This document shows, piece after piece, positions 1 through 14,075 of a DNA stretch of 64,000 bases. A program made the position numbers and the translations under genes. Below the pieces are notes generated by a model. That model made no database searches and had not been told where the DNA came from. It saw nothing but the letters and a program-made list of their open reading frames with translations. The stretch's first letter is position 1; the number at the start of each line of letters is the position of its first letter. This stretch comes from Methanogenium sp. S4BF. GTDB taxonomy: Archaea > Halobacteriota > Methanomicrobia > Methanomicrobiales > Methanomicrobiaceae. The stretch covers positions 1,361,940-1,425,939 of the forward strand of contig NZ_CP091277.1 in assembly GCF_029633965.1 (NCBI RefSeq), in the 5' to 3' direction.

Positions 1-141
1 CAGGGGCCTGGCCTCCCATACAGTATATGGAAATTGCTGGTATATTCAGAACGAATGTGGAGGAGTGTGTGATATAATCTCAGTGAGCTAAATATACGTG
101 GCTATACGTGGCACCGCACGTAACCAATGTGATATGCAACA

Positions 142-465: not shown

Positions 466-968
466 TTGTATCTGTCACCTCATCACGTGAATCCTCTTTT
501 GTCTATGCAGAACAAAAACATCGTGAGGTCATTGCAGACTTCTGAATGAACCGGGGACGGAATTTTGGCAAATTATCCCTGAACGTGCGGCACAGGCCAA
601 AATAATTAAACGCATTCACTAAGATATTCACATAAAGAGATGTATTAAGCAATGACCAACAGCTCACGGAACCACGACAAAAAACACTGGAAGACTCCGC
701 AAATGACGATTATCATCAGAAATAACGATGAAAAAGTCCTTTCTGTATGCAAGGATGGACATCAGGCAGGAAACCCTGAATTAACGTACATGACATGCTG
801 GTACAATAACCCCCTATGTGGGGTAATGTGCTCTTTGGTAAGTCCGAGCTAATCTATCAGGCATCCGCGATAACCGATGTAATTTCGGAAAATACCGTAA
901 TTACCGCACATCCGTTGAATCACCATCACCGGCGGAAAAAAACCTGCATCCGCACGTTCCCTTCCCGC
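466..968. other. Mostly empty stretch before the radical SAM relic
   Basis: Apart from the 66-codon ORF at 652-852 described separately, I see no gene here. An AT-rich element (AAAATAATTAAAC, about 599-611) could be a TATA box for that ORF. No repeats or RNA genes were recognised. The stretch looks like decayed intergenic DNA flanking a degraded radical SAM gene copy. Confidence 0.4.
652..852 (+). CDS. Possible small peptide gene with Cys-rich C-terminus
   Basis: A 66-residue ORF with a charged, polar N-terminal half and a C-terminal third carrying three cysteines among Trp, Tyr and Asn (TCWYNNPLCGVMC). This leader-plus-core look is what a radical-SAM-modified precursor peptide could have. 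It lies upstream of a decayed radical SAM gene end and about 0.9 kb before the intact maturation locus. A TATA-like element sits about 45 bases upstream, and the ribosome-binding site (AGAGATG) is only fair. Nothing shows that it is expressed or modified, so chance is a real alternative. Confidence 0.3.
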   Translation: MTNSSRNHDKKHWKTPQMTIIIRNNDEKVLSVCKDGHQAGNPELTYMTCWYNNPLCGVMCSLVSPS

Positions 969-1274: not shown

Positions 1275-1410
1275 GTGGGGGAACTAACCGGTGAACATGG
1301 CAATCACACACATCACCCGGATGATGGCATGTGAATCACGTTTTCATTGCGTGTCCTGAAAGGTATGACAGCGCAGATGCTCCCTTTAATCAAGCCCTGT
1401 TTTGTCACAC

Positions 1411-1480
1411 TATTTTGAAATAATCGCCCCAAAATCCATTTTACCTTAAATAAATAGCGGCAGGTATTTATTTCAAAATA
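1411..1480. promoter_or_regulatory. Inverted repeats and TATA region before the TPR/ABC genes
   Basis: TATTTTGAAATAA at 1411-1423 is repeated in exact inverted form at 1468-1480. A second perfect 8-base inverted pair (AAATAAAT at 1448-1455, ATTTATTT at 1466-1473) is nested inside. A TATA-like AATTTTAATATAA follows at about 1483-1495. The arrangement suggests a regulator-binding site just upstream of the core promoter for the TPR/exporter transcript; this is inference from position and symmetry. Confidence 0.45.
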
Positions 1481-1550
1481 CAAATTTTAATATAACAGAC
1501 GATTCTGATTGAACATAGCAGAGAACAGGAATCATCATCGGATTCACTTC

Positions 1551-2081
1551 ATGAAACAAGCAGCCATACACCGATTCATCGGAGGATTTCTCATTATTCT
1601 CATGCTCTGCAGCGGAATAGGGAATGCGTCAGATGATATTGAGACAGATCGTTTTATTTCACAACTTCAATCGGCACTGAATGCACATGAGAATGGGAAA
1701 ACTGAGCAGGCCATCTTTATGATAGATAATGCTTCAGAAACCTATCTGCATACGAACTGGAGCTATTACATCTGCGGATACCTGATCTCAGAGATGGGGG
1801 ACGATGAACGGGCTCTCGTGCACTTAAATAAAGCACTGGAAACCGACAGCACCTATGCTCAGGCATGGTATTACAAAGGGAAGGCATTGTCTGGTCTGGG
1901 AAGAGACCGGGAAGCTGCGGAGTGTTTTGCCCGTGCAGAAGAACTTGATGAACGGTATACAGTTCCCTGGACAGAAAAATGGCCGGTCAGCATCATTTTC
2001 AGGAATCTGACATTGATATATCTGGTTCTTGCATTCGGAGGACTGGGCATCTATATCGCAAAACGGGAAGGAAAATTTTGA
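1551..2081 (+). CDS. Membrane-anchored TPR protein
   Basis: A 176-residue protein with an N-terminal hydrophobic segment (about residues 8-24), then two or three tetratricopeptide-like helix pairs (A-Y-KGKAL-GLGR and A-ECF-RA-EL patterns), and a C-terminal transmembrane helix near residues 146-168 followed by a basic tail. TPR repeats serve protein-protein contacts. I chose ATG 1551 because it places the hydrophobic signal at the N-terminus; a TTG 42 bases upstream keeps the frame open. It ends 49 bases before the exporter start and probably shares its transcript. It could organise the peptide-maturation enzymes or the exporter at the membrane, which is inferred from context only. Confidence 0.7.
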   Translation: MKQAAIHRFIGGFLIILMLCSGIGNASDDIETDRFISQLQSALNAHENGKTEQAIFMIDNASETYLHTNWSYYICGYLISEMGDDERALVHLNKALETDSTYAQAWYYKGKALSGLGRDREAAECFARAEELDERYTVPWTEKWPVSIIFRNLTLIYLVLAFGGLGIYIAKREGKF

Positions 2082-2130
2082 TGAAGGTTCTTTCGTACGC
2101 ACTTGTGTCACCGGTGGTCAGAGGAATTCG

Positions 2131-3936
2131 ATGAAGGTACCGGAGAGAATCCGGGCCATATCCGGATTTGTCAGGGGGCTCTTTGTCATCCCCCAACGGG
2201 AGCATATTCGCCTCAACTCCCGCGATCTGACTTTTTTTCTGAAATATCTGCGACCGGTGATGCACCTTGCGGTTCTCTGTATTCTCTTCAATATCCTGCT
2301 CAGTGGCGTAAAGGTGCTTTACCCCCTGACGACAAAGATCCTTATTGACAATATCTTTCTCGGCAATGACCCTGCAGGCATCATTCAGGAGCTAAACACC
2401 CTTCTTCCGGCATGGATGGTCACACAGATCTCATGGATCTTTTATTCCCTGACAGCCCTCATTATCGCGGTTCTCCTGCTCGGAGTGCTCACCGTTGTTC
2501 TTCAGGTTTCCATCAGTTATGTAACCGTCTGTTTCCGGGAAGCCTATACCTTTCATCTCCAGACCGATCTCTTCAGTCATGTGCTGCGGTTTCCCATAGC
2601 GTATTTCCGTTCCCATCAGACCGGCTACATCATGTCGCGCCTGACAGAGGATGTCAGTGTTCTGGAGTATATCTTCTCGCAGTTTCTCCCCCAGATGCTG
2701 TCAAATATTACCTATATCATCATGTCAGTCGGCATTTTATTTGCCCTCAACACCCGGCTGACATCCCTCGTGATTGTGCTGGCCCCCCTCTTTCTGGTCG
2801 GCAATTTCTTTTTTGTCAGGTACATCCGGGCAGTTACGTACGAGGAGCGGGAGCGGCGGGCCGACATCTCAAAGGATCTCCAAGAGATTATTACCGGCAT
2901 CGAGAGTGTCAAGGTTCATACCGCAGAGCGGCGTGAATACCAGCGGCTTTCATCAGCGCTCTCTGCAGCCATTGACACCCGCATCAGAAATACGATGCTG
3001 AACAGTTTTTCCCAGCAGGTGCGGTTCGGCACCCAGTCCCTGATTATGCTCACGGTACTCTGGTTTGGGGGTAATGCTGTTCTTGCAGGCAGTATGACAG
3101 TGGGGGATTTTGTGGCATATACCGCCTATATCGCCACATTTGCCGGAGCGATGAATTCACTGCTGTCTTTTCCCATCCTCCTGCAGCCGGCATTTACCTC
3201 GGCCGAACGGATACAGGAACTCTTCAGGCTTACGCCTGAGGCAGATGAGAATGAAGGCATCATACCTGAAACCACGGAAGGGACCATCACCTTTTCAGAT
3301 GTCTCGTTTTCCTATCAGGAGAATGTACCGGTGCTGTCCCATGTCACCCTCACCCTGAAACGTGGGGAAATATATGGTATTTCCGGGAAAACAGGTGCAG
3401 GAAAGACGACACTTATAAGTTTGATTCTGTCTTTTTACCGCCCGGATACCGGAACTATTCTTTTAGACGGGAGAGATATTGCCACCCTGAACGGTACATG
3501 GCTCAGGGAGCAGATTTCAGTTGTTTCACAAGACCTCTTTCTTTTCAATAAAACGATCAGGGAAAACATCCTCTACAGCAGGCCGGATGCGACCGATGAT
3601 GACGTCATTGCAGCAGCAACCAGGGCACAGATACACGATGAAATTCTGGCACTACCTCACGGATATGATACGGTGGTCGGTGAACGGGGCACCCAGCTAT
3701 CTGTTGGGCAGCGGCAGCGGATTTCTATTGCCCGTGCATTTCTAAAAGACGCCCCGATTCTTATCCTGGACGAGCCAACATCTGCACTGGATGAACGGAC
3801 AGAAGAGGCCCTCATTCCTCTCCTGAAAGCACTCTCTGCAGACCGGACAACGATTCTGATATCCCACCGCCCCTCGGTCCTCAGGATTACAGACATCATT
3901 TACGTGGTGAAGGACGGGACGGTTTATATGAAATAA
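2131..3936 (+). CDS. ABC exporter, fused membrane and ATPase domains
   Basis: A 601-residue half-transporter of the type I exporter family. About six transmembrane helices fill residues 40-320; the nucleotide-binding domain follows with Walker A (GKTGAGKTT), Q-loop region (VVSQDLFLF), signature LSVGQRQR and Walker B (LILDEPTSALD). Two chains should dimerise. There is no N-terminal C39 peptidase domain, so leader removal, if any, must be done elsewhere; the downstream S26-type protease is the obvious candidate. ATG 2131 is preceded by GAGG six bases upstream; an upstream in-frame start overlaps the previous gene. The context (PqqD, radical SAM enzymes, peptide kinase) points to export of a modified peptide, but the cargo is not known from sequence. 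Confidence 0.88.
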   Translation: MKVPERIRAISGFVRGLFVIPQREHIRLNSRDLTFFLKYLRPVMHLAVLCILFNILLSGVKVLYPLTTKILIDNIFLGNDPAGIIQELNTLLPAWMVTQISWIFYSLTALIIAVLLLGVLTVVLQVSISYVTVCFREAYTFHLQTDLFSHVLRFPIAYFRSHQTGYIMSRLTEDVSVLEYIFSQFLPQMLSNITYIIMSVGILFALNTRLTSLVIVLAPLFLVGNFFFVRYIRAVTYEERERRADISKDLQEIITGIESVKVHTAERREYQRLSSALSAAIDTRIRNTMLNSFSQQVRFGTQSLIMLTVLWFGGNAVLAGSMTVGDFVAYTAYIATFAGAMNSLLSFPILLQPAFTSAERIQELFRLTPEADENEGIIPETTEGTITFSDVSFSYQENVPVLSHVTLTLKRGEIYGISGKTGAGKTTLISLILSFYRPDTGTILLDGRDIATLNGTWLREQISVVSQDLFLFNKTIRENILYSRPDATDDDVIAAATRAQIHDEILALPHGYDTVVGERGTQLSVGQRQRISIARAFLKDAPILILDEPTSALDERTEEALIPLLKALSADRTTILISHRPSVLRITDIIYVVKDGTVYMK

Positions 3937-4026
3937 AAATGGAGTTCCCGGATGATAGTGGCAGACACGTACATGCAATTTTTTTGTGGAAAAATCGCTA
4001 TCCTGCCATTTAAGCATTGTTCGGAC

Positions 4027-4070
4027 GAACTCTGGAGAGAGTTCCATATCAGATTCCTTAAATATAAATA
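4027..4070 (+). promoter_or_regulatory. Promoter of the pqqD-like operon with small inverted repeat
   Basis: TTAAATATAAATA at 4058-4070 is a clear archaeal TATA box. The next gene starts at ATG 4095, about 30 bases downstream, with no ribosome-binding site, so the mRNA is probably leaderless. GAACTC at 4027-4032 and GAGTTC at 4039-4044 form an inverted repeat just upstream of the TATA box. The PqqD operon therefore seems to have a promoter separate from the TPR/exporter pair. Confidence 0.6.
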
Positions 4071-4094
4071 TCAACAAAAAAACGATTGATCTAT

Positions 4095-4397
4095 ATGAAT
4101 ACAGAAATAAGTCTCAATTCAGTAATTAAACCGTCGGAAGATGTCGTATCACGGGATGTCATGGGCGAACTTATCATCGTCCCCCTCACCTCCGGAATCG
4201 GCGATATGGAAGACGAGATCTACACCATGAACGACACGGGGCGGGCAGTCTGGGACAGGCTTGACGGAAAGGCCAGTCTTGGTGAGATAGCCAAAGCCCT
4301 TGAAGCCGAATATGACGCTCCCCCCGGTGCAATTGAAACCGACGTGCATGGGATCGCTGCCGAACTGCTCCGGCGGAGAATGGTTGTTGAAGTCTGA
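4095..4397 (+). CDS. PqqD-like peptide-binding protein
   Basis: A 100-residue protein with the PqqD fold pattern: two N-terminal strands, the motif IYTMNDTGRAVWDRLDG, and a helical C-terminal half (LGEIAKALEAEYDAP...AAELLRRRMVVEV). PqqD domains are RiPP recognition elements that hold the leader of a precursor peptide and deliver it to a radical SAM or other modifying enzyme. Start ATG 4095 fits a leaderless transcript from the TATA box at 4058; a TTG three codons upstream is less likely. The end overlaps the start of the peptidase-GNAT gene, so the two are translationally coupled. It is the strongest single sign that this locus modifies a peptide. Confidence 0.88.
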   Translation: MNTEISLNSVIKPSEDVVSRDVMGELIIVPLTSGIGDMEDEIYTMNDTGRAVWDRLDGKASLGEIAKALEAEYDAPPGAIETDVHGIAAELLRRRMVVEV

Positions 4398-5406
4398 ACA
4401 GACCAGCACGATTGAACCGGAGAAAGACAGGAGTGTATATACCAGTAAAATACGGCTTGAACTCCTCAAGGCCGTCACAGAACGGGGAAAACTCTTCCGC
4501 TTCCGTGCACCCGGATTCAGCATGTACCCGTTCATCAGGAACGGTGATATCATCACCGTCGCCCCCCTGCCTGAAAACGGCCCGGAGACCGGCGATGTGG
4601 TGGCATTTGTCCACCCCGGCACCGGCAACCTGATCGTCCACCGGGTGGTTGAAAAGACCGACCGCGGCTACCTGATCCGGGGAGACAACACTGAGGGGCC
4701 GGATGGGACGATTCCTGCATCCAGCCTCATCGGAGTCGTCGTCAGGGTCGAGCATAAGGAAAGGGATGCAGCAGTAGCAGGGATCAGGTATGGGCGAAGA
4801 CCGATAGCCATGCTCAGCAGAACGGGTCACCTCCGTAAGATCACCAGAACTATCAGCCATTTCAAAGGAGCGGGTGCAGCAGGTCTACAGACAGCCCAGA
4901 AATTCGCATTATACCGGCGGGTGGCAGGCTCATTAAAACCCCGGATATCCATCGCGGAAGCGGATGATCAGGACATGAACAACTTCTACAGCGGGTGGAA
5001 TTATCATCCTGACCAGCCGCCATACCGACCCGACCCGCTGGTGACGAATTTCGTTGCAAAAGACGGCAAAGAGATCGTCGGCTTCGTCCAGCTTATGCGT
5101 CACCCTGAATCCCATCATCCCTACGCCGGATATTGGCTTATCGACCTGATGGTCAGGGTACCATACCGCGGCATGGGCATTGGGAGAGACCTCTCAGAAC
5201 AGGTGATCCTGATGGCCGAACAGGAGGGGGCACCGGAATTGTCTCTCATTGTCGGGGAAACGAACAGACCAGCCATATCGCTCTACCGGAAGCTTGGGTT
5301 CGAACCACTCACACAACCGGAGCTGGAGCAGCAAATAAGCGATGAGTATGCATCGACCGGGATTCGGCGGATAGCAATGCACAGGATCTGCGAACGCAGA
5401 ACATAA
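4387..5406 (+). CDS. S26 signal-peptidase-like / GNAT acetyltransferase fusion
   Basis: Two unrelated enzymes in one chain of about 339 residues. Residues 38-125 carry an S26 peptidase of the archaeal/ER type: serine in PGFSMYP (about S45), histidine in LIVHRVV (about H85) and aspartate in RGDN (about D100); bacterial enzymes use lysine instead of this histidine. I see no membrane anchor. Residues 170-335 form a GNAT domain with the acetyl-CoA loop RVPYRGMGIG and the late motif SLYRKLGFE. TTG 4387 (or 4384) is the likely start, with GGAG eight bases upstream inside the pqqD-like gene. By context the protease could remove a leader and the GNAT acetylate the freed peptide, a functional inference. 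Confidence 0.85.
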   Translation: MKSEQTSTIEPEKDRSVYTSKIRLELLKAVTERGKLFRFRAPGFSMYPFIRNGDIITVAPLPENGPETGDVVAFVHPGTGNLIVHRVVEKTDRGYLIRGDNTEGPDGTIPASSLIGVVVRVEHKERDAAVAGIRYGRRPIAMLSRTGHLRKITRTISHFKGAGAAGLQTAQKFALYRRVAGSLKPRISIAEADDQDMNNFYSGWNYHPDQPPYRPDPLVTNFVAKDGKEIVGFVQLMRHPESHHPYAGYWLIDLMVRVPYRGMGIGRDLSEQVILMAEQEGAPELSLIVGETNRPAISLYRKLGFEPLTQPELEQQISDEYASTGIRRIAMHRICERRT

Positions 5407-6570
5407 ATGACGGATAGTATCATGACGGGACAATTTATCACCGAACTAAAAATTCAGGACTTCAAACTCTGGGATGAAATGAAGGAAAAACGGGCATGCT
5501 TCTCCTTCACCCTTGAACTGACCGCACGGTGCAACAACAACTGCACACACTGTTACATCAACCTCCCGCCGAATGATGCAGGCGCACGGGAACGGGAGCT
5601 GAACGCCGACCAGATCATGGATATTGCCGATCAGGCCATCGCTCTCGGAGCGATCTGGTGCAATATTACCGGCGGCGAACCCCTGCTCAGGCCGGACTTC
5701 ACGGAGATCTATCTCGGCCTGAAGAAGAAGGGACTCCTCGTATCGGTCATGACGAATGCGACCCTGATTCACGAAGAGCATGTGGCCTTATTCCGCAGGT
5801 ATCCGCCGCGGGACATCGAGATCACCGTCTATGGCGTGACAAAAGAGACCTATGAAGCGGTCAGCCGCATCCCCGGCTCATATGATGCGTTCATGCAGGG
5901 CCTTACCCTCCTGCAGGATGCGGGTGTGAAGATCCGGCTCAAGTCCATGGCAATCCACTCAAACCTCCATGAAACAGACAAGATTGCTGAATTCTGCCGG
6001 GCACGGACCAAGGATTACTACCGATTCGATCCCCAGCTACACCTGAGAATGGATCATGACCCGATAAGAAATGAAGAAATCAGGAACGAGCGGCTTACCC
6101 CCAAAGAGGTTGTTGCACTGGAGGCAGCAGATCCTGACCGGCGGGAGGCACTTGCAAATGGTTGCGACAGGATGATCATTCCGGAATTCTGCAATATCAG
6201 CTGCAATCATCTCTTCCATTGCGGTGCCGGCATCGGCGATTTCGTCGTCAGCCCTGACGGGATGATGAGATTGTGTATGTCTCTCTGCCACCACGATTGC
6301 ATCTATGACCTGACAACAGGGACGCTTGCAGACGCCTGGTACAATTTCATCCCGAAAGTGAGGGATATGCATTCAGATGATACAACATTTCTGGAGACCT
6401 GCCGGAAATGCCCAATCATCAATCTCTGCCTCTGGTGTCCGGCCCATGCCGATATCGAGACCGGCCTTCTGGACGGATCGGTTGACTACTTCTGTAGTGT
6501 CGCCCATGCACGGGCAGGGTCTCTCGGATATACCGGAACGAAACCGAATTTTACCACAACAGAACCCTGA
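5407..6570 (+). CDS. Radical SAM/SPASM peptide-modifying enzyme
   Basis: A 387-residue radical SAM protein. CNNNCTHC at residues 42-49 binds the 4Fe-4S cluster that cleaves S-adenosylmethionine, and TGGEPLLRPDF is the SAM-binding GGE motif. The C-terminal third has a SPASM-like set of cysteines (CGAG, CMSLCHHDC, CRKCPIINLCLWC, FC) for auxiliary Fe-S clusters, as in enzymes making Cys, Tyr or Lys cross-links in peptides. There is no N-terminal RiPP recognition domain, consistent with the separate PqqD. It begins immediately after the stop of the peptidase-GNAT gene and ends before a T-tract, closing the pqqD operon. It is paralogous to the enzymes at 8404 and 10404. Confidence 0.9.
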   Translation: MTDSIMTGQFITELKIQDFKLWDEMKEKRACFSFTLELTARCNNNCTHCYINLPPNDAGARERELNADQIMDIADQAIALGAIWCNITGGEPLLRPDFTEIYLGLKKKGLLVSVMTNATLIHEEHVALFRRYPPRDIEITVYGVTKETYEAVSRIPGSYDAFMQGLTLLQDAGVKIRLKSMAIHSNLHETDKIAEFCRARTKDYYRFDPQLHLRMDHDPIRNEEIRNERLTPKEVVALEAADPDRREALANGCDRMIIPEFCNISCNHLFHCGAGIGDFVVSPDGMMRLCMSLCHHDCIYDLTTGTLADAWYNFIPKVRDMHSDDTTFLETCRKCPIINLCLWCPAHADIETGLLDGSVDYFCSVAHARAGSLGYTGTKPNFTTTEP

Positions 6571-6625: not shown

Positions 6626-6820
6626 ATGAACGCTCCATCTCATATTCATGCTCAACATGACAGCCATCCATTTTTGGGCGTACCACATTCCTGTCAGACC
6701 ACAAAAACAATCCTGCACCTGACGGCACTATACTGCAAGGGTGAAGCATCCCGCAGTCAGGAACGGATCATCCCCCCGAACTTCTGCCGGAACGGCAAAA
6801 TTAAAGTTTATAATTCCTGA
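6626..6820 (+). CDS. Possible 64-residue peptide gene in the maturation locus
   Basis: A short ORF after the radical SAM gene, overlapping the 3' end of the convergent nucleotidyltransferase gene by 20 bases. The product would have a His-rich start (HIHAQHDSH), two cysteines 14 residues apart (CQTTK...LYC) and a third near the end (NFCRN). Its place among the enzymes makes it a candidate precursor peptide, but the ribosome-binding site is weak (AAAGAAAG), no promoter is visible and it lies after a T-tract. Chance is about as likely as function. Confidence 0.22.
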   Translation: MNAPSHIHAQHDSHPFLGVPHSCQTTKTILHLTALYCKGEASRSQERIIPPNFCRNGKIKVYNS

Positions 6821-8072
6821 TACTCATCCATCTCCGGATATGCGAAAACGGGATATCAAGCGGGGATTCTGATTGTTTGTAGTGATTCATCGATTCCCGA
6901 TGGGGAAGAATGAACCGGTAACAGTAGCGTACTCGCTCATAATGGGAAGGCATGCCCTGCAGGGTAAGATACATTCCGGAGTGGATACAACTTCCACGGT
7001 TTTTTGCATACCTCCACAATCGCTCCTCCCGGTCAGATGCAGCCCCCCAACCGGAAAAATCCGCAAATGCTTCCGGAATGGCAGCTCCTGCCCAGAGAGA
7101 ACCGGCAGTCAGTGCAATCTCAAGAGGAATCCGGATATGATTTTGTACACATGTGGAGCGGAGCGTTTCCCAGTCTTCCGGCACACGGAGAGAATTCATG
7201 AGTGAGGCAATATCATACACCCAGTCAAGGCGAAGAGACTGGTGCTGGAATACATGATGATAGGCAAGAAACGTGAGATGACTGGCAGGGTCCAGCGTAT
7301 AACAGGAGAGATCATCCGCATGGATGGGTATTTTGCGATCAAAGGCATTGTCAAGCCAGTCCGGGGAGAACATTCCATAGCCGGAATCGGTAACCCAGTG
7401 CAATTCGACGGGAATGCCCTTCCCCGGCAGATAATAATTCTGATGGTGGGCAGAGTAGCGGGATGTGTGGAACGTTTTATTCGGACAGGAATAGCCAAGT
7501 TTCTCAAAGATCGGTTCACACCGGATGATATCATCCGGTTTTACGAGAATATCAATGTCTGAAGAATGCCGCAGTGCCGGGTCGGGATAGACCGTGCGTG
7601 CCAGTGCATGGCCTTTGAGAAGAATGGCAGGTATGCCGGCATCTTCCAGTGCGGTGGTAACGGTCCGCACCTGTCTTCCCAGACGAAGGTTCCGTGCACA
7701 CCCTTCCATGAATATCCGCGAGAAAAATGCCATGATTTCTTTGGGCGGAAGGCATTCCTCATCCCATTCTTTCAGATGAAATGCCAGAAGGGGAAAGATT
7801 CCGTGAGGACGCAGGAGTGTCAGCAGGGCATCCCACTCTTCTGTGGAGCAGGCAGGGGGAACGACGGGGGTGTTTCGTATGATACAGAGAAGGTACTCCA
7901 GAAGATCATCCGGGAGTGCAAGGAGCGCATTCGGGGGATCACCCGCCAATGGAACGATTGTGTGGAGGTTCCGGATGGATTTTTGTCCGGCACAATGTTT
8001 AAATCCAATACTCTGAACCGGTGCGGGTGACGCCATAATAAAAAAATATGGTCTCCTGCCAGATATGTCCAT
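6801..8072 (-). CDS. NTP_transf_5-type nucleotidyltransferase
   Basis: About 423 residues, of the uncharacterised nucleotidyltransferase family that travels with lasso-peptide, PqqD and HPr-kinase-like genes. The core is GHALARTVYPDPALRHSSDIDILV in the middle of the chain: a lysine/glycine helix start followed by SDIDIL, the paired acidic residues that bind metal and nucleotide in this superfamily. It would transfer a nucleotide or phosphate group, possibly to a peptide already phosphorylated by the kinase encoded at 8404; this pairing is known from bacterial peptide clusters, while the substrate here is inferred. The gene points the opposite way from its neighbours. Start choice is uncertain; ATG 8036 (MASPAPVQ) is an alternative. 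Confidence 0.8.
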   Translation of the reverse strand: MDISGRRPYFFIMASPAPVQSIGFKHCAGQKSIRNLHTIVPLAGDPPNALLALPDDLLEYLLCIIRNTPVVPPACSTEEWDALLTLLRPHGIFPLLAFHLKEWDEECLPPKEIMAFFSRIFMEGCARNLRLGRQVRTVTTALEDAGIPAILLKGHALARTVYPDPALRHSSDIDILVKPDDIIRCEPIFEKLGYSCPNKTFHTSRYSAHHQNYYLPGKGIPVELHWVTDSGYGMFSPDWLDNAFDRKIPIHADDLSCYTLDPASHLTFLAYHHVFQHQSLRLDWVYDIASLMNSLRVPEDWETLRSTCVQNHIRIPLEIALTAGSLWAGAAIPEAFADFSGWGAASDREERLWRYAKNRGSCIHSGMYLTLQGMPSHYERVRYCYRFILPHRESMNHYKQSESPLDIPFSHIRRWMSIRNYKL

Positions 8073-8403
8073 TGATTGAAAACGGGGCTGCTGTTCAGTG
8101 ATGACATCATACAGGGAGCGATATCACCGGAAAATGGAGACAAACCTCATTCATGCAGCTGAAATTCATACCCTTTTTTCCGCCGGATGGTCCAAAGAAT
8201 CCAAATCTCCCTTAACAATAATTATCAACTATTCTCACCCATTTTTCCTTATTATCGATACAGATTATCAGTCCGATGTCCCTTTGGGATGGAAATTACC
8301 CTCAGAAATGGCATCCGGTTGAAACAGCCAAATGACCAGAAAATAGAATGAAATACTGTGATTTTTGCTCTGTAAATGATATTCAAAACCATTTGGATGC
8401 CTT
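8073..8403. other. Divergent intergenic region between nucleotidyltransferase and kinase fusion
   Basis: This stretch must hold promoters for both flanking genes. AT-rich candidates are TTCCTTATTATCGATA (about 8246-8261) and GTAAATGATATT (about 8371-8382). A 74-codon ORF crosses it (8098-8322) but has no ribosome-binding site or recognisable feature. No repeats were seen. Confidence 0.35.
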
Positions 8404-10407
8404 ATGACCGACTACTTATCCATTAAACAAACCGACCGGATGCCCCGTCTTCCCCTCTCCGGTTCCATCGATCTCACCTATCGGTGCAACAACAACTGCT
8501 GTCACTGCTGGCTGAGAATTCCGCCGGGTGCTCCGGAAAAAAAGCAGGAACTCTCCTTTGATGAGATCTGCCATATCGTCGACGACGCACGTGCTATGGG
8601 ATGCCGGCACTGGTCCATCTCCGGGGGCGAACCGATGCTCCGGCCGGATTTTGCCGAAATATTTGATTACATAACGAGCCGGGCCTCTTCATACTCGATC
8701 AATACGAACGGCACGATGATCACCCCGGAGATCGCTCAACTCATGACGCGGAAAGGGAACAAGATGATTGCGCTCTACGGTGCGACAGAAGCGGTTCATG
8801 ACCGGATCACCCGGAGTCCCGGTTCATTTCAGGCCACGATGCGGGGATTTGAACTCCTGAAAGAGGCGGGAGCCGGTTTCACCGTCCAGCTTATTCCGAT
8901 GAAAGACAGTTATCATGAATATCCTGCAATGATTGAACTGGCACAGTCTCTGACCCCCCACTGGAGAGTAGGTGCCCCCTGGCTGTACCTGTCTGCATGC
9001 GGCTCGGCTGAGAAGAACGCTGAGATCGCAGCCCAGCGACTTTCCCCGGCAGATGTGATAGCCCTGGATACGCCAAACATCTCGTATGAAGAGGAGCACA
9101 GAACAGAGGATTCCTGCAGTCCGAATCCAACAGATGACCGTCTCTTTGCCCGGTGTATAGAGAAAAGGAGGGACTTTCATGTGGATCCGTATGGGATGAT
9201 GTCCTTCTGCTGCTTCATCAAAGATCCCGCAATGAGATATGACCTGCGAACAGGCAGTTTCGAGGAAGCCTGGGAGGTGTTCATCCCCTCCCTCGCAGAT
9301 ACGGTCAGAGGGGGAGAGGAATACCGGGAGAACTGCGGGTCGTGTGAGAAACGGTCAGACTGCCGGTGGTGTCCGGTCTATGGGTACCTGGAAACCGGCA
9401 GGTATTCTGCAAAAGTCCCGTATCTCTGTGAAGTCGCTGATGAAGCAAAGAAATTCAGGGAAGAATGGCAAAAGAAACACCGCCGCTATTTCAGAATTGC
9501 AGGCATCACCGCCCGTTTGGAGAGTGACCTTGACTTTGATGAAACAGGCTTTGCCGAGAAACTGGTGCCCTTCATGGTCGATGGTCCGGGTGATGACAAT
9601 GTCACCATCCGGCATTACTTTGAACTGCCTGACCTTGCAGGAAAGGATCTCGGCAGGGAACTCTACCGGAAGGCGCCGTGGGCAATCTCCCGGAAAGGGG
9701 ATACCTGGTTCTATCAGGGCATCTCACCAAATCCTGAGGACCAGGGTATCCACAGGGTGGCAGTCTTTAGCGGAGATTATACAAAGGCAACTATTTACAG
9801 CCCTCCAGAAGATGGCGAACGAATCCGGACCGAAGGGTGGCAGTCGCTCTCCCTCTTCCCGACGGACCAGATCTGGGTTGCCCCGCTTCTTGCTGAACGG
9901 AATGCTGCCCTGATCCATTCCGGTGCGGTCTCTCTTGACGGGCAGGGCCTGATGTTTGTCGGGCATTCCGAGGCAGGCAAGTCTACCACGATGACGCTTC
10001 TCAGGCAGGCAGCAGAGGAGAGCCTGAACAGTTCACCGTTTGAGGTTGAAATCCTCTGTGATGACAGAAATATTGTCAGGCGCCATGATGACGGCTGGTA
10101 TGTCCACGGGACATGGAGTCATGGGGATGTCCCCGATGTCTCACCGGCATCAGCACCGCTTAGGGGGATACTGTTCCTGAAACAGGACACAGAAAATGCG
10201 ATAAAACCGCTTACGGATAAGAAACAATGTTTCAGGATACTTTTTGACACCCTGATCAGACCAATGGGAACAGCCGAATGGTGGGACAGGGAGATGGAGA
10301 TCCTTGAGAGGATTGTTACCGAGGTCCCCTGCTATGTCATGCATTTTGATAAGAGCGGTGCGATTGTGCCGGAGATTCGCGAGCTTATCAGGAACGATGC
10401 TCTGTGA
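8404..10407 (+). CDS. Radical SAM/SPASM enzyme fused to HPr-kinase-like domain
   Basis: A 667-residue two-enzyme fusion. Residues 20-355 are a radical SAM protein: CNNNCCHC at 28-35, SGGEPMLRPDF, and late SPASM-like cysteines (CGSCEKRSDCRWC, YLC). From about residue 370 the chain becomes an HPr-kinase/phosphorylase-like domain: a strand-rich lead-in, HSGAVSLDG, the P-loop GHSEAGKST at 520-528, then LCDDRN with paired aspartates. HPr-kinase-like proteins in RiPP clusters phosphorylate the precursor peptide. No phosphotransferase-system genes are visible nearby, so a sugar-transport role is unlikely. The stop overlaps the GTG of the next gene by four bases. A fused radical SAM-peptide kinase suggests the two modifications act on the same peptide. 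Confidence 0.9.
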   Translation: MTDYLSIKQTDRMPRLPLSGSIDLTYRCNNNCCHCWLRIPPGAPEKKQELSFDEICHIVDDARAMGCRHWSISGGEPMLRPDFAEIFDYITSRASSYSINTNGTMITPEIAQLMTRKGNKMIALYGATEAVHDRITRSPGSFQATMRGFELLKEAGAGFTVQLIPMKDSYHEYPAMIELAQSLTPHWRVGAPWLYLSACGSAEKNAEIAAQRLSPADVIALDTPNISYEEEHRTEDSCSPNPTDDRLFARCIEKRRDFHVDPYGMMSFCCFIKDPAMRYDLRTGSFEEAWEVFIPSLADTVRGGEEYRENCGSCEKRSDCRWCPVYGYLETGRYSAKVPYLCEVADEAKKFREEWQKKHRRYFRIAGITARLESDLDFDETGFAEKLVPFMVDGPGDDNVTIRHYFELPDLAGKDLGRELYRKAPWAISRKGDTWFYQGISPNPEDQGIHRVAVFSGDYTKATIYSPPEDGERIRTEGWQSLSLFPTDQIWVAPLLAERNAALIHSGAVSLDGQGLMFVGHSEAGKSTTMTLLRQAAEESLNSSPFEVEILCDDRNIVRRHDDGWYVHGTWSHGDVPDVSPASAPLRGILFLKQDTENAIKPLTDKKQCFRILFDTLIRPMGTAEWWDREMEILERIVTEVPCYVMHFDKSGAIVPEIRELIRNDAL

Positions 10408-11597
10408 CAGAAGAGCACTCTTCCCCCTATGCCGTAACAGTCGATGCAACGTCTCATCACTTATGGAAGGATAAAATACCACTCCTTGGCAGGCTGGATA
10501 TGGAGCTAACCGAGCGGTGCAACAACAACTGCATACACTGCTGCATCAACCTGCCCGAGGATGACAAGGATGCCCGCAGGCGTGAGCTGTCAACAGACGA
10601 GATTAAGGGGATCCTTACCGAAGCCGCAGTCCTTGGTGCGATGTCGGTCAGGTTTACCGGAGGGGAACCCCTTATTCGGGATGATTTTACGGAGCTGTAC
10701 CTTTTCGCCCGGAAACTCGGCATGAAGGTCATGCTCTTTACCAACGGACGCCTGATTACTCCTGAAATTGCCGACCTTCTTGCACGTGTCCCTCCGCTTG
10801 AGAAGATAGAGATCACGGTCTACGGAATGACAAAGGAGTCATACGAGGCGGTTGCTCGTGTGCCGGGTTCGTACGATGAGTTCCGGCGGGGTATGCAGCT
10901 TCTCATGGAGAAAGGCATTCCGTTTGTCGTAAAGGGTGCCCTGCTTCCCCCGAACCGGGACGAGATAGATGAATTTGAGGCGTGGGCTGCGACAATTCCG
11001 GCGATGGACACGTCCCCGTCCTATTCAATGTTTTTCGACCTCCGGTGCCGCAGGGACTTTCCGGAGAAGAACCGGCAGATAGCAACACTAAGACTCTCGC
11101 CGGAGGATGGTGTTTCTGTGCTTTCACGGGACCGTGAGCGGTACCTGAAGAGCATGCGGGAGTTTTGCTCAAAGTTTATGCGGCCATCCGGCAAAAAACT
11201 CCTCGCCTGTGGGGCAGGACATGGCGGGTGTGTTGATGCGTACGGCATGTACCAGCCCTGCATGATGCTCAGGCATCCGGACTGTGTGTATGACCTTCGT
11301 TCCGGGTCGCTTGAGGATTCAATGACGAATTATTTCCCAAAACTGCGCGAGATGGAGGCCGAGAATCCCGAATATCTTGCCCGATGCGCCCGATGTTTCA
11401 TCAAAGGCCTCTGCGAGCAGTGCCCGGCAAAGTCGTGGATGGAGCACGGGACGCTCGATACACCGGTGGAATATCTCTGCGGGGTCGCCCATGCACAGGC
11501 ATATGATCTTGGCCTCCTTGAAGAGGATGAGAAGGCATGGGAGGTAGAGGACTGGCAGGAGAGGATTGACCGGTTTGTGAACGAAGAGCACCAATAA
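10404..11597 (+). CDS. Radical SAM/SPASM peptide-modifying enzyme
   Basis: A 397-residue paralog of the enzyme at 5407. The cluster-binding CNNNCIHC is at residues 39-46, FTGGEPLIRDDF follows, and the SPASM-like region has CGAGHGGC, CMMLRHPDC, CARCFIKGLCEQC and YLC. It starts with GTG inside the stop codon of the kinase fusion (GTGA overlap), so the two are co-translated. Its C-terminus is the intact version of the relic at 1122-1274. Three related radical SAM enzymes in one locus imply three separate reactions or three sites on a peptide; which chemistry cannot be read from sequence. Confidence 0.9.
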   Translation: MTEEHSSPYAVTVDATSHHLWKDKIPLLGRLDMELTERCNNNCIHCCINLPEDDKDARRRELSTDEIKGILTEAAVLGAMSVRFTGGEPLIRDDFTELYLFARKLGMKVMLFTNGRLITPEIADLLARVPPLEKIEITVYGMTKESYEAVARVPGSYDEFRRGMQLLMEKGIPFVVKGALLPPNRDEIDEFEAWAATIPAMDTSPSYSMFFDLRCRRDFPEKNRQIATLRLSPEDGVSVLSRDRERYLKSMREFCSKFMRPSGKKLLACGAGHGGCVDAYGMYQPCMMLRHPDCVYDLRSGSLEDSMTNYFPKLREMEAENPEYLARCARCFIKGLCEQCPAKSWMEHGTLDTPVEYLCGVAHAQAYDLGLLEEDEKAWEVEDWQERIDRFVNEEHQ

Positions 11598-12866
11598 ACA
11601 TTTGTCTGTGTGTCTGTCCCCCTACCTCATGGAGGTGGTCAGGCAGTACCTGATTCTATGATTCGACAGGAAAAGAATTTGATAAATGTGTGATGGTGTT
11701 TGAATTCCTGCCATTCATACCATATCATAACATTTTTTCGGGATTTTTTATCTGGCAACGTGTGTTCTTACAGTAACAATGTGAGAATTTCGGAGGCCAT
11801 TGTTAACTTGAGATCGTTGAGGAACAATCGAGTTCACAATATCCGAACTGTTCGATCAGACACCCGAAATAATAGCTACCGGAACCTGTTACCCCCGCTG
11901 TCTTGCAACCCATGATAACGCTCTCTTTACTTTGATGTCTGGTGAGTACGGCCAATGTTGGTGTCTGCCATCCGGCAGTGTTTTTATTCTGTTGTTTTGT
12001 TGACTGGGATTCTATTACATCGGATTGATTACCTGAACGGATATATTTTTGGATTTCAACCGCTGGATTCGCATGCAATCGTCAAAAACAATCCAAATGA
12101 GAATTGCACAGGTTCAATTCCTTGAAATCCCAACAATCTGGTCCGAATCATGCGATGTTCAACCCGTATGTGCCAGCTGAATAATCCCTTTCTTGGTTTT
12201 ATTGGAATTGAGTTCTCCCGGAATTGGACGAAATTGTGATCCATGCAACGACCGGCGAAAGCTTTGAGAAAGCAATCCGTGTTGTTCATGCTGTACTGAG
12301 AAGCCTTCGCCGACAAACCATGAATGTAATTCATGAAGAACAACTGTATCCAGTGTTTATGTGTATCTTCAGCTCGTTGTCACGTCTCGACAAGACGCAA
12401 TACACTCCAGTCCGGTATTAAAGTTGCAGTTATTATGCCCTACATCCGGGGACACAACCGTGTTGTCGCCTTTGCATCCGGCTAAAATTGCTTCCTGAGC
12501 GTGATCTCTTTGATGTACCAGGAGCACCGGGCACTCCCATGACGTCTGTTTCACGATATCTGTTTCCTTTTTACTACCCATAAGGGGCCTTTTTCGCCTC
12601 ACTGCAAAAAGTCTGTCGGTTTGAATACCTGTTTGTGGTATCTGATAGTCGAACGGGGGGAAATGGTACCGGGTGCATACACTTCCTGTCCGGAAAACCA
12701 GCTGTGCCGATAATCCGACAGTTTCGTGAGATCGTTTGTCCACAGACGAGTGAAAATGCGCCTTATTTAATAAAATATTACCACAGGTAATTTTCTACCC
12801 CAAAGGAAATTCTTATGTTGCAATGACTCCACTTTTTAATTATCTATAAGGAGTTCGTGAACATCA
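11598..12866. other. 1.27-kb stretch with no recognisable gene
   Basis: Short ORFs exist on both strands (for example 12369-12743 minus, 124 codons; 12056-12343 minus, 95 codons), but none has a convincing ribosome-binding site or family motif. Frequent frame breaks and AT-rich patches suggest decayed genes, perhaps an old mobile element, but no terminal inverted repeats or transposase motif were identified. The right end carries the mat promoter. A translated search could reveal relics that I cannot name. Confidence 0.4.
12763..12780 (+). promoter_or_regulatory. Probable mat promoter (TATA region)
   Basis: An unbroken A/T run of 18 bases starting TTATTTAATAAAA lies about 90-100 bases before the mat ATG. 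It is the best TATA candidate for the mat-his genes and predicts an untranslated leader of roughly 70 bases ending in AAGGAG. Confidence 0.4.
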
Positions 12867-14075
12867 ATGGGACGCAATATTGCAGTTGAGACACTCAGCG
12901 AAACACCACTCAACAGACAGAAACTGGAACTTGCAGAACGCAAATGCATCGGCCACCCGGACAGTCTTGCAGACGGTATCGCAGAAGCGGTCTCACAGGC
13001 CCTCTCGCGGGCATACCTGGATGAATGCGGCGCTGTGCTGCACCACAACACCGACCAGGGCGAGATTGTGGCAGGAGAGTCCATCCCGCGGTTCGGCGGC
13101 GGCACCATCACCCGGCCCATGTATGTGCTGCTTACCGGGCGTGCCACAAAGACCTTCGACGGCGTGACTGTTCCCACCGACGCGATTGCACTCGAGGCTG
13201 CACGCAACTATCTCTCGAATACGCTGGAATACCTCAACATGAACAAGGATGTCATCGTTGACTGCCGCATGGGGGCAGGTTCGTCTGACCTTCGTGATGT
13301 ATTCCGTGCCTGCAACGGACAGCACCTTCCGCACGCAAACGACACATCCTTCGGCGTGGGGCATGCACCGTTCTCTGATCTTGAGAATGTCATCCTTGCC
13401 GTGAGCAACCACATCGACGGTGTATACCGGCCGAAAAACCCGATCATCGGGACCGATATCAAGATCATGGGTCTGCGCCAGGAAGAGGACATTACCCTCA
13501 CCCTCTGCGTGCCGATGATCGACCGGTTCTGCACGGACATGAACGACTACAAAGAGGCAGTCATCCGTGTCGGCGAAGAGGTGCAGCGGGTCGCATCCGG
13601 CATCACTGACCGCCGTGTGGCAGTGGACATCAACACCGGCGACAACTACGAGGCAGAGGGGGCAATCTTCCTGACGGTGAACGGCACCTCCGCCGAGATG
13701 GGAGACGACGGCTCCGTGGGCCGGGGCAACCGTGCAAACGGGCTTATCACCCCGCACCGCCCGATGAGCATGGAGGCGACCAGCGGAAAGAACCCGATCA
13801 ACCATATCGGAAAGATCTACAACCTCCTCTCCACCGAACTGGCACAGCAGTGTGCACAGGAGCTCGACGGCATCGAGGACCTCTACATCAGGCTCCTCTC
13901 CCAGATCGGACGCCCGATTGACCAGCCGCTCATCGCAGGCGCACAGTATGTGGCAGCAGAGGGAGCGGATACCGCTGTTATCAGCCGCGGCATCGAGGAA
14001 ATAATCGACGCAGGCCTTGCCGACATCACCTCAATCACCGAGCGGGTCATCCGCGGAGAGATGAAGACCTTCTAA
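12867..14075 (+). CDS. mat: Archaeal S-adenosylmethionine synthetase
   Basis: A 402-residue protein of the archaeal methionine adenosyltransferase family, which makes S-adenosylmethionine from methionine and ATP and has a sequence quite distinct from bacterial MetK. Typical segments are [17 protein letters not shown] near the N-terminus, [18 protein letters not shown] in the middle and a C-terminal [20 protein letters not shown]. Length is normal for the family. The start is ATG 12867 with AAGGAG upstream. It is followed after a short gap by hisG, and it lies 1.3 kb from three S-adenosylmethionine-consuming radical SAM genes, probably by coincidence because the enzyme is housekeeping. Confidence 0.96.

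Follow-up and report, generated by a model that had tools for sequence, protein, structure and literature searches.

Does a gene that joins a radical SAM enzyme to a kinase in one reading frame bring two activities to bear on a common substrate, and which substrate could that be? The question arises from a 64,000-nucleotide stretch of DNA (hereafter the window) of a methanogen whose genome consists of a single contig of 2.51 Mb, in which the original prediction had described a 667-residue frame uniting an intact radical SAM/SPASM module with an HPr-kinase-like domain, and had taken the fusion as strong evidence that radical modification and phosphorylation act on a shared substrate. The frame itself is real and directly observed: the ORF at 8404-10407 (forward strand) starts with ATG, encodes 667 aa without internal stops, and is a radical SAM/SPASM enzyme joined to an HprK/PEPCK-fold kinase, as had been noticed. 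The features of this gene and of its neighbors are as follows, where rSAM stands for radical SAM enzyme.

1-91, forward strand: precursor 1 (60 aa), 3' part, with its start upstream of the window; ends ...CDIISVS (profile E 9e-13)
652-852, forward strand: precursor 2 (66 aa); ends ...CSLVSPS
2029-3936, forward strand: ABC exporter with membrane and ATPase domains (domain scan)
4095-4397, forward strand: PqqD-type leader-binding protein (RRE; Pfam PqqD 4e-15)
4390-5406, forward strand: archaeal-type S26 signal-peptidase-like protease carrying a fused GNAT acetyltransferase; probably the leader peptidase
5407-6570, forward strand: rSAM1, stand-alone radical SAM/SPASM enzyme and sole rSAM of minimal clusters
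6801-8072, reverse strand: NTP_transf_5 nucleotidyltransferase (Pfam 3e-48)
8404-10407, forward strand: rSAM2-kinase fusion, 667-aa open frame; fused architecture kept in about 55 kinase copies
8404-9480, forward strand: rSAM2 radical SAM/SPASM module, residues 1-359 (Pfam, fold matches, own clade)
8485-8508, forward strand: CNNNCCHC radical SAM [4Fe-4S] motif (C28, C32, C35), invariant in 51 fused sequences
9334-9372, forward strand: SPASM-type CX2CX5CX2C (C311-C323), invariant in the alignment; pattern present in 52/55 fused frames scanned
9481-10404, forward strand: HprK/PEPCK-fold kinase domain, residues 360-667 (NCBIfam and Pfam matches of homologues; model and Foldseek)
9916-9918, forward strand: His505, at the place of the HprK His that precedes the P-loop (1jb1 alignment; >90% conserved)
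9961-9987, forward strand: P-loop GHSEAGKST, residues 520-528, intact in 72/75 homologues
10057-10068, forward strand: CDDR motif, residues 552-555, HprK-like catalytic acidic pair (homologue conservation, 1jb1 alignment)
10404-11597, forward strand: rSAM3, stand-alone radical SAM/SPASM enzyme, with a 4-base overlap with the fusion gene
11803-12078, reverse strand: precursor 3; ends ...CSSTISS; start uncertain, with only a distant TTG in frame
12369-12581, reverse strand: precursor 4 (70 aa, ATG at 12581); ends ...CRDVTTS

The N-terminal half of the fusion (rSAM2) meets the test for the radical SAM superfamily, with a Pfam Radical_SAM match over residues 24-179 (3e-22), a PF04055 score of 79.9 bits against a cut-off of 29.5, and the CX3CX2C motif in place. 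In an alignment of 51 fused proteins C251, C269, C311, C314, C320, C323 and C342 are invariant, and the best fold matches of the full-length model include the RiPP maturases SkfB, SuiB and PqqE; C-terminal Cys pattern and fold together satisfy the criterion for a SPASM auxiliary cluster. The Pfam SPASM model PF13186, on the other hand, gave no match above threshold for the fusion and only 14.7 bits for rSAM1. The intact CNNNCCHC/SPASM module that had been claimed is therefore borne out as far as motif and invariant cysteines are concerned, while its putative SPASM part rests on the Cys pattern and the fold matches and not on the Pfam model.

The C-terminal half was more difficult to place. A Pfam scan of the 308 C-terminal residues alone returned no match, which is a sensitivity limit resolved by homologues, profiles and structure. 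A phmmer search of the domain against the PDB retrieved only a spurious dehydrogenase, which was rejected. When ten kinase homologues were scanned against NCBIfam, ScmC was matched by 10/10, as the best match of each, HprK-related B by 9/10 and HprK by 8/10, and six of the ten also matched Pfam Hpr_kinase_C. L. casei HprK (1jb1, E 0.006) and S. xylosus HprK (1ko7) both align with a profile built from 75 homologues, through the His, the P-loop and the Asp-Asp pair. The AlphaFold model of the domain is confident (pLDDT 94.6, pTM 0.90), and the top 50 Foldseek matches of this model in the PDB are all PEPCK or HprK/P (E 1e-6 to 1e-3). By its fold, and by the His, P-loop (GxxxxGKS/T) and Asp-Asp in HprK order, the kinase meets the criteria of the HprK/PEPCK superfamily; the C-terminal half belongs to it, with a similarity to characterised HprK that is marginal (E 0.006). 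The full active site (H, GHSxAGKS/T, CDDR) is intact in 72/75 kinases. A match to a different P-loop family would have refuted the HPr-kinase-like domain with P-loop GHSEAGKST: none emerged, and the assignment is upheld by fold, profile and homologue matches, with catalysis not shown. Curated cut-offs led us to reject membership in ScmC, ScmE, ScmF, HprK and HprK-related A/B, the kinase domain scoring 10.6 bits against 240 for TIGR00679 (HPr(Ser) kinase/phosphatase equivalog) and 23.7 against 125 for TIGR04249 (ScmC); divergent stand-alone kinases of other loci also remain below the latter cut-off, with 30-38 bits.

The fusion is just one of three radical SAM enzymes in the cluster. In the tree, rSAM1, rSAM2 and rSAM3 each fall into an orthologous clade of their own (SH-aLRT 96, 100, and 99, respectively). 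Gene conservation was observed in 39 well-flanked loci by means of a similarity cut-off, so that the lower figures are minima. PqqD, rSAM1, rSAM3 and the S26-type gene co-occur: rSAM1 and PqqD were found in 37/39 loci each, rSAM3 in 36/39, precursor peptides in 34/39 and the S26-type gene in 31/39, followed by the exporter (19/39) and the nucleotidyltransferase (17/39). With these frequencies of precursors and PqqD, the criterion for a RiPP cluster is met. The nucleotidyltransferase gene is the only PF14907 member of the host genome, and no peptidase domain was found in the ABC exporter (2029-3936). The S26-GNAT protein (4390-5406) aligns over both domains with a Methanolinea protein (locus L027, 6612-7784) and represents the second fusion of the cluster, by which leader removal is perhaps coupled to N-acetylation. 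The next gene downstream (window 12867-14075) resembles, by eye and without a family search, an archaeal S-adenosylmethionine synthetase, which would supply the rSAM co-substrate; his genes follow, and the proximity may be due to chance.

Comparison of small unassigned ORFs between loci revealed a multi-copy peptide family with the pattern W..P..R..E..CK...C...C..C-x5-S. Its members align as W..P......R...E.....CK, followed by a core of variable sequence containing C...C and by Ser as the last residue, and share the leader motif W..P.L.VL.R..PEE.VL.. in their N-terminal part. The family has no model in Pfam or NCBIfam and appears to be new and undescribed; the parts of the cluster are of known kinds, and their combination appears to be new as well. 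An iterated profile collected 114 members in 67 loci, four of them in the host genome and all of these within or at the edge of the window. Precursor 3 has no ATG, GTG, or TTG at the expected leader start, and either uses a non-standard start, carries a long TTG-started leader, or is a damaged gene. Among the 91 distinct members, counted as those with an intact leader motif, 89 were observed to end in Ser or Thr (82 Ser, 7 Thr), and the other two look truncated or damaged. At positions -2 to -6 the frequency of Ser/Thr is 14-31%, and the C-terminal residue is the only near-invariant hydroxyl residue of the precursors; the last Cys lies at -7 in 80% of the 91. Lone precursor genes also occur near short rSAM3 fragments (L142, L144 and L145, in genomes G128 and G125), which suggests that in both genomes precursor genes and parts of the enzymes have been dispersed or reshuffled.

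The kinase domain was found in 10/232 genomes of the order, none of the others belonging to the genus or family of the window, and given so patchy an occurrence, horizontal movement of the system is probable. When about 85,000 species genomes were scanned, 79 loci came to light, distributed over Methanobacteriota (NCBI sense), Omnitrophota, Thermodesulfobacteriota, Myxococcota, Chlorobiota, Acidobacteriota, Chloroflexota, Planctomycetota, Aminicenantes, WOR-3 and others, i.e., in archaea and more than 12 bacterial phyla in all. With the window counted, the kinase shares a frame with the rSAM2 module in 55 copies, is a lone protein in 23 and is truncated at a contig end in 4; the fusion is far from restricted to the window, and in about 30% of the relatives the kinase is a separate protein. 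In the kinase tree the window copy groups with those of Methanolinea, Chloroflexi and Planctomycetota, and fused and lone forms interchange several times, with at least 5-6 changes forced by strong branches. In two genomes with a lone kinase, G191 (98% complete) and G220 (75%), rSAM2 was absent elsewhere in the genome. Since precursors of this family are also found with lone kinases, the pathway does not require the fusion, which is a convenience. A Saganbacteria contig (L068, 8894-19502) carries two tandem cassettes, each with its own rSAM-kinase fusion and rSAM3, while rSAM1 turned up solely with the second cassette, where the locus ends. A plasmid search gave remote rSAM matches only, and no fusion.

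A correlation between rSAM content and the number of core cysteines was also observed. Loci with rSAM1 only (L091, L095, L098 and L102) have 2-Cys cores in 4/4 cases, those with rSAM1 and rSAM3 have three Cys in 13/16, and those with all three enzymes have four Cys in 51/60. A Cys near -7 occurs in every locus with rSAM3 and in 1/4 without it, and a Cys 2-4 residues ahead of the last one in 51/60 with rSAM2 and 4/16 without. The raw association between rSAM2 and at least four Cys has a Fisher p of 5e-6 and ignores phylogeny; a phylogeny-aware pair test found four supported independent pairs, about two concordant and none discordant, too few to reach significance. Exceptions are the 4-5 Cys of L075 and L092, which have no rSAM2, part of L065, and six 3-Cys precursors in loci with three rSAMs. 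The rule therefore rests on few independent events, and the action of rSAM2 on the extra Cys by the C-terminus remains a hypothesis drawn from sequence comparison and the weakest step of our proposal, to which we give a little less than even credence.

We consider it probable that the cluster encodes the pathway to a RiPP with radical crosslinks and a phosphate, and that the fusion serves there as a bifunctional maturase working at the C-terminal end of the peptide; the chemistry is inferred, as are all catalytic steps and site assignments, for which there is no biochemistry. The PqqD-type protein would bind the leader of the small precursor peptides, and three paralogous radical SAM/SPASM enzymes would act on the core Cys, the CK...C part being the site of rSAM1, the Cys seven residues from the end that of rSAM3, and the extra Cys about 3-4 residues before the latter that of the fused rSAM2. 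The products are most likely thioethers or other links centred on Cys. With ATP, the fused HprK-like kinase would place a phosphate on the hydroxyl of the C-terminal Ser/Thr, to which the nucleotidyltransferase, an optional component, may add a sugar or nucleotide, as in pseudomycoidin. The S26-type protease probably cuts off the leader, and the ABC transporter would export the product. On this proposal rSAM2 and the kinase are fused because both would act at the same peptide end.

The phosphorylation of the C-terminal Ser/Thr by the HprK-like kinase is inferred by analogy and not shown; the substrate is assigned in this way because a terminal Ser/Thr is the signature of HprK-like lasso-peptide kinases, which add a phosphate to the C-terminal Ser of precursors with little else in common (review PMC8498205). 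Loss of the kinase offers a partial control. The kinase site is degenerate in 3/75 copies (L064, L099 and G188). In L064 and L099 a degenerate fused copy (8273-10252 and 1303-3351, respectively) is accompanied by an intact lone kinase in the same locus, and the precursors still end in Ser. G188 has a degenerate P-loop (GLLKADKN) and no second kinase, and its three tandem precursors end in Ala, Asp and Ser, with the core Cys retained; G175 has an orphan precursor ending in Glu, and no kinase. A Ser/Thr end is thus found in 1/4 precursors where the kinase is degenerate or absent, vs. 89/91 elsewhere (Fisher p 3e-4), in a small and non-independent sample of four precursors from two genomes, one of which (G188) has a cluster decaying in general. 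A search for kinase-free precursors covered 232 genomes at the level of the order and 393 at that of the phylum, and only G175 was clean: G172 and G138 were excluded as incomplete, G172 having a fusion cut by a contig end, and the control is weak. In the Methanoregula MAG G188 (L023/L076, L138) the decaying copy has lost the P-loop of the fused kinase and its rSAM3 is split into fragments. L064, L065 and L099 have lone kinases that group together in a single clade (SH-aLRT 99). As for the shared substrate inferred from the fusion, the idea finds support in a co-localised precursor family that nearly always ends in Ser/Thr and in a Cys count that tracks rSAM content, with the qualifications that the fusion is one of three rSAMs, that some 30% of the kinases are separate and that neither activity is shown biochemically.

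Other readings of the same data deserve consideration. From the relatives in which the kinase stands alone one might suspect that an error of assembly or frame, or the accidental read-through of two genes, lies behind the fusion; this can be dismissed with near certainty, because the genome is a single contig and the in-frame fusion with its HRRYF junction is shared by about 55 kinase copies in numerous assemblies and phyla, and because the full-length structure prediction is a confident two-domain model (pLDDT 89.2, pTM 0.82). An assembly artefact, which would have undone the original prediction, is thereby excluded. The HprK-like half could instead be a pseudo-kinase that binds ATP and peptide in a positioning or regulatory role without phosphate transfer: the copies of L064, L099, and G188 retain the domain without a working P-loop, so a non-catalytic role is possible. 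We find this very improbable in view of the 72/75 kinases with a full active site and of the intact lone kinase that accompanies two of the three degenerate ones, an arrangement to be expected where phosphorylation continues to be required. An unlikely alternative that nonetheless has to be kept in mind is that the conserved terminal Ser is recognized by a different component of the pathway (the nucleotidyltransferase, an rSAM, the leader peptidase, or the exporter), and that the kinase acts on a different target, for instance a residue of the leader, a partner protein, or a small molecule. C-terminal conservation by itself names no reader, the nucleotidyltransferase could use Ser directly, and kinase activity is inferred only from motifs. 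However, of these enzyme types only the kinase has a precedent for acting on precisely the terminal Ser (PMC8498205), no second Ser/Thr is conserved in the precursors, the tolerance of Thr at the end (82 Ser, 7 Thr) fits a hydroxyl acceptor, and the terminal Ser persists although many loci have neither nucleotidyltransferase nor exporter.

The system might also be regarded as the SynChlorMet (SCM) cassette already defined in TIGRFAMs, with kinase ScmC (TIGR04249), PqqD homologue ScmD (TIGR04248) and the rSAMs ScmE (TIGR04250) and ScmF (TIGR04251). ScmC, the top NCBIfam match of all ten kinase homologues, is the nearest named family to the kinase domain, and both cassettes combine an HprK-like protein with a PqqD homologue and at least two rSAM/SPASM proteins. 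Even so, the scores stay far below the cut-offs (kinase about 24 vs. 125 bits, rSAMs about 53-81 vs. 400, PqqD 22 vs. 100), none of the window rSAM1, 2, and 3, with about 62-81 bits, reaching the 400 bits of TIGR04250/04251, and rSAM1, rSAM2, and rSAM3 each form a clade of their own. In the Aminicenantes locus L079, moreover, near-cut-off ScmE (396) and ScmF (346) and an ScmC-like kinase lie beside the full present cassette (2376-6215 and 8912-14069); the two occur side by side and are therefore separate systems. Cut-offs and this case led us to reject the filing as SynChlorMet, which we hold to be very improbable.

If the preferred reading of a bifunctional maturase in a phosphorylated, radical-crosslinked RiPP pathway is correct, one polypeptide unites radical Cys modification and C-terminal phosphorylation, a pairing not known here on one ribosomal peptide. 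The precursor family supplies the missing candidate substrate and makes the system testable at once, and the relation between enzyme number and Cys number predicts which enzyme modifies which Cys. More tentatively, and with somewhat less than even confidence, we could be dealing with a new RiPP class, spread horizontally among archaea and many little-studied bacterial phyla, with radical-made Cys crosslinks and a C-terminal phospho-(or phosphoglyco-)Ser, in which the number of rSAM enzymes present determines that of the crosslinks (n enzymes going with n+1 cysteines) and the fusion both carries out the last crosslink and phosphorylates the terminus of the peptide.

Several known systems share single traits with the cluster. 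A literature search found no paper on an rSAM-kinase fusion and none on SynChlorMet, most subscription journals being outside its scope. Phospeptin is a ribosomal peptide reported to be (poly)phosphorylated (PMC9259500), for which the accessible part of the source describes no radical SAM-kinase fusion; the present kinase, for its part, belongs to the HprK type. HprK/P (PDB 1jb1, 1kkl, 2qmh) has the same fold and His ... P-loop ... DD order, whereas the present kinase adds an N-terminal beta-rich region of about 120 aa that links it to the rSAM domain, and sits in a RiPP cluster and not in the PTS. The maturases PqqE, SkfB, SuiB and CteB share CX3CX2C and SPASM-type Cys, a PqqD partner and Cys-containing peptide substrates; they differ from the present enzyme in its C-terminal kinase and in the three orthologous rSAMs serving one peptide family, and no known peptide maturase family was matched above cut-off. 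The lasso-peptide kinases (PadeK of paeninodin, ThcoK; PMC8498205) resemble the present one in HprK-type fold and motifs and in the C-terminal Ser of the precursor, and there too a nucleotidyltransferase may follow, as in pseudomycoidin, where it adds hexoses to the phosphate on the C-terminal Ser (PMC8498205). In contrast, the substrate here is no lasso precursor but has a core rich in Cys, and a radical SAM enzyme is fused to the present kinase; of the PadeK-type criteria the C-terminal Ser is met (89/91 Ser/Thr), and the lasso cyclase and B1/B2 are not, no lasso cyclase family being found among the eight window cluster proteins scanned (not a systematic search of all loci). Compared with SynChlorMet, the present system has the rSAM-kinase fusion, up to three rSAMs, an S26 protease and an identified precursor family. 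Judged by family scores and gene content, it is kin to the SynChlorMet families (ScmC/E/F) and outside them, and it offers a working hypothesis for the uncharacterised ScmC as a kinase for a peptide C-terminal Ser.
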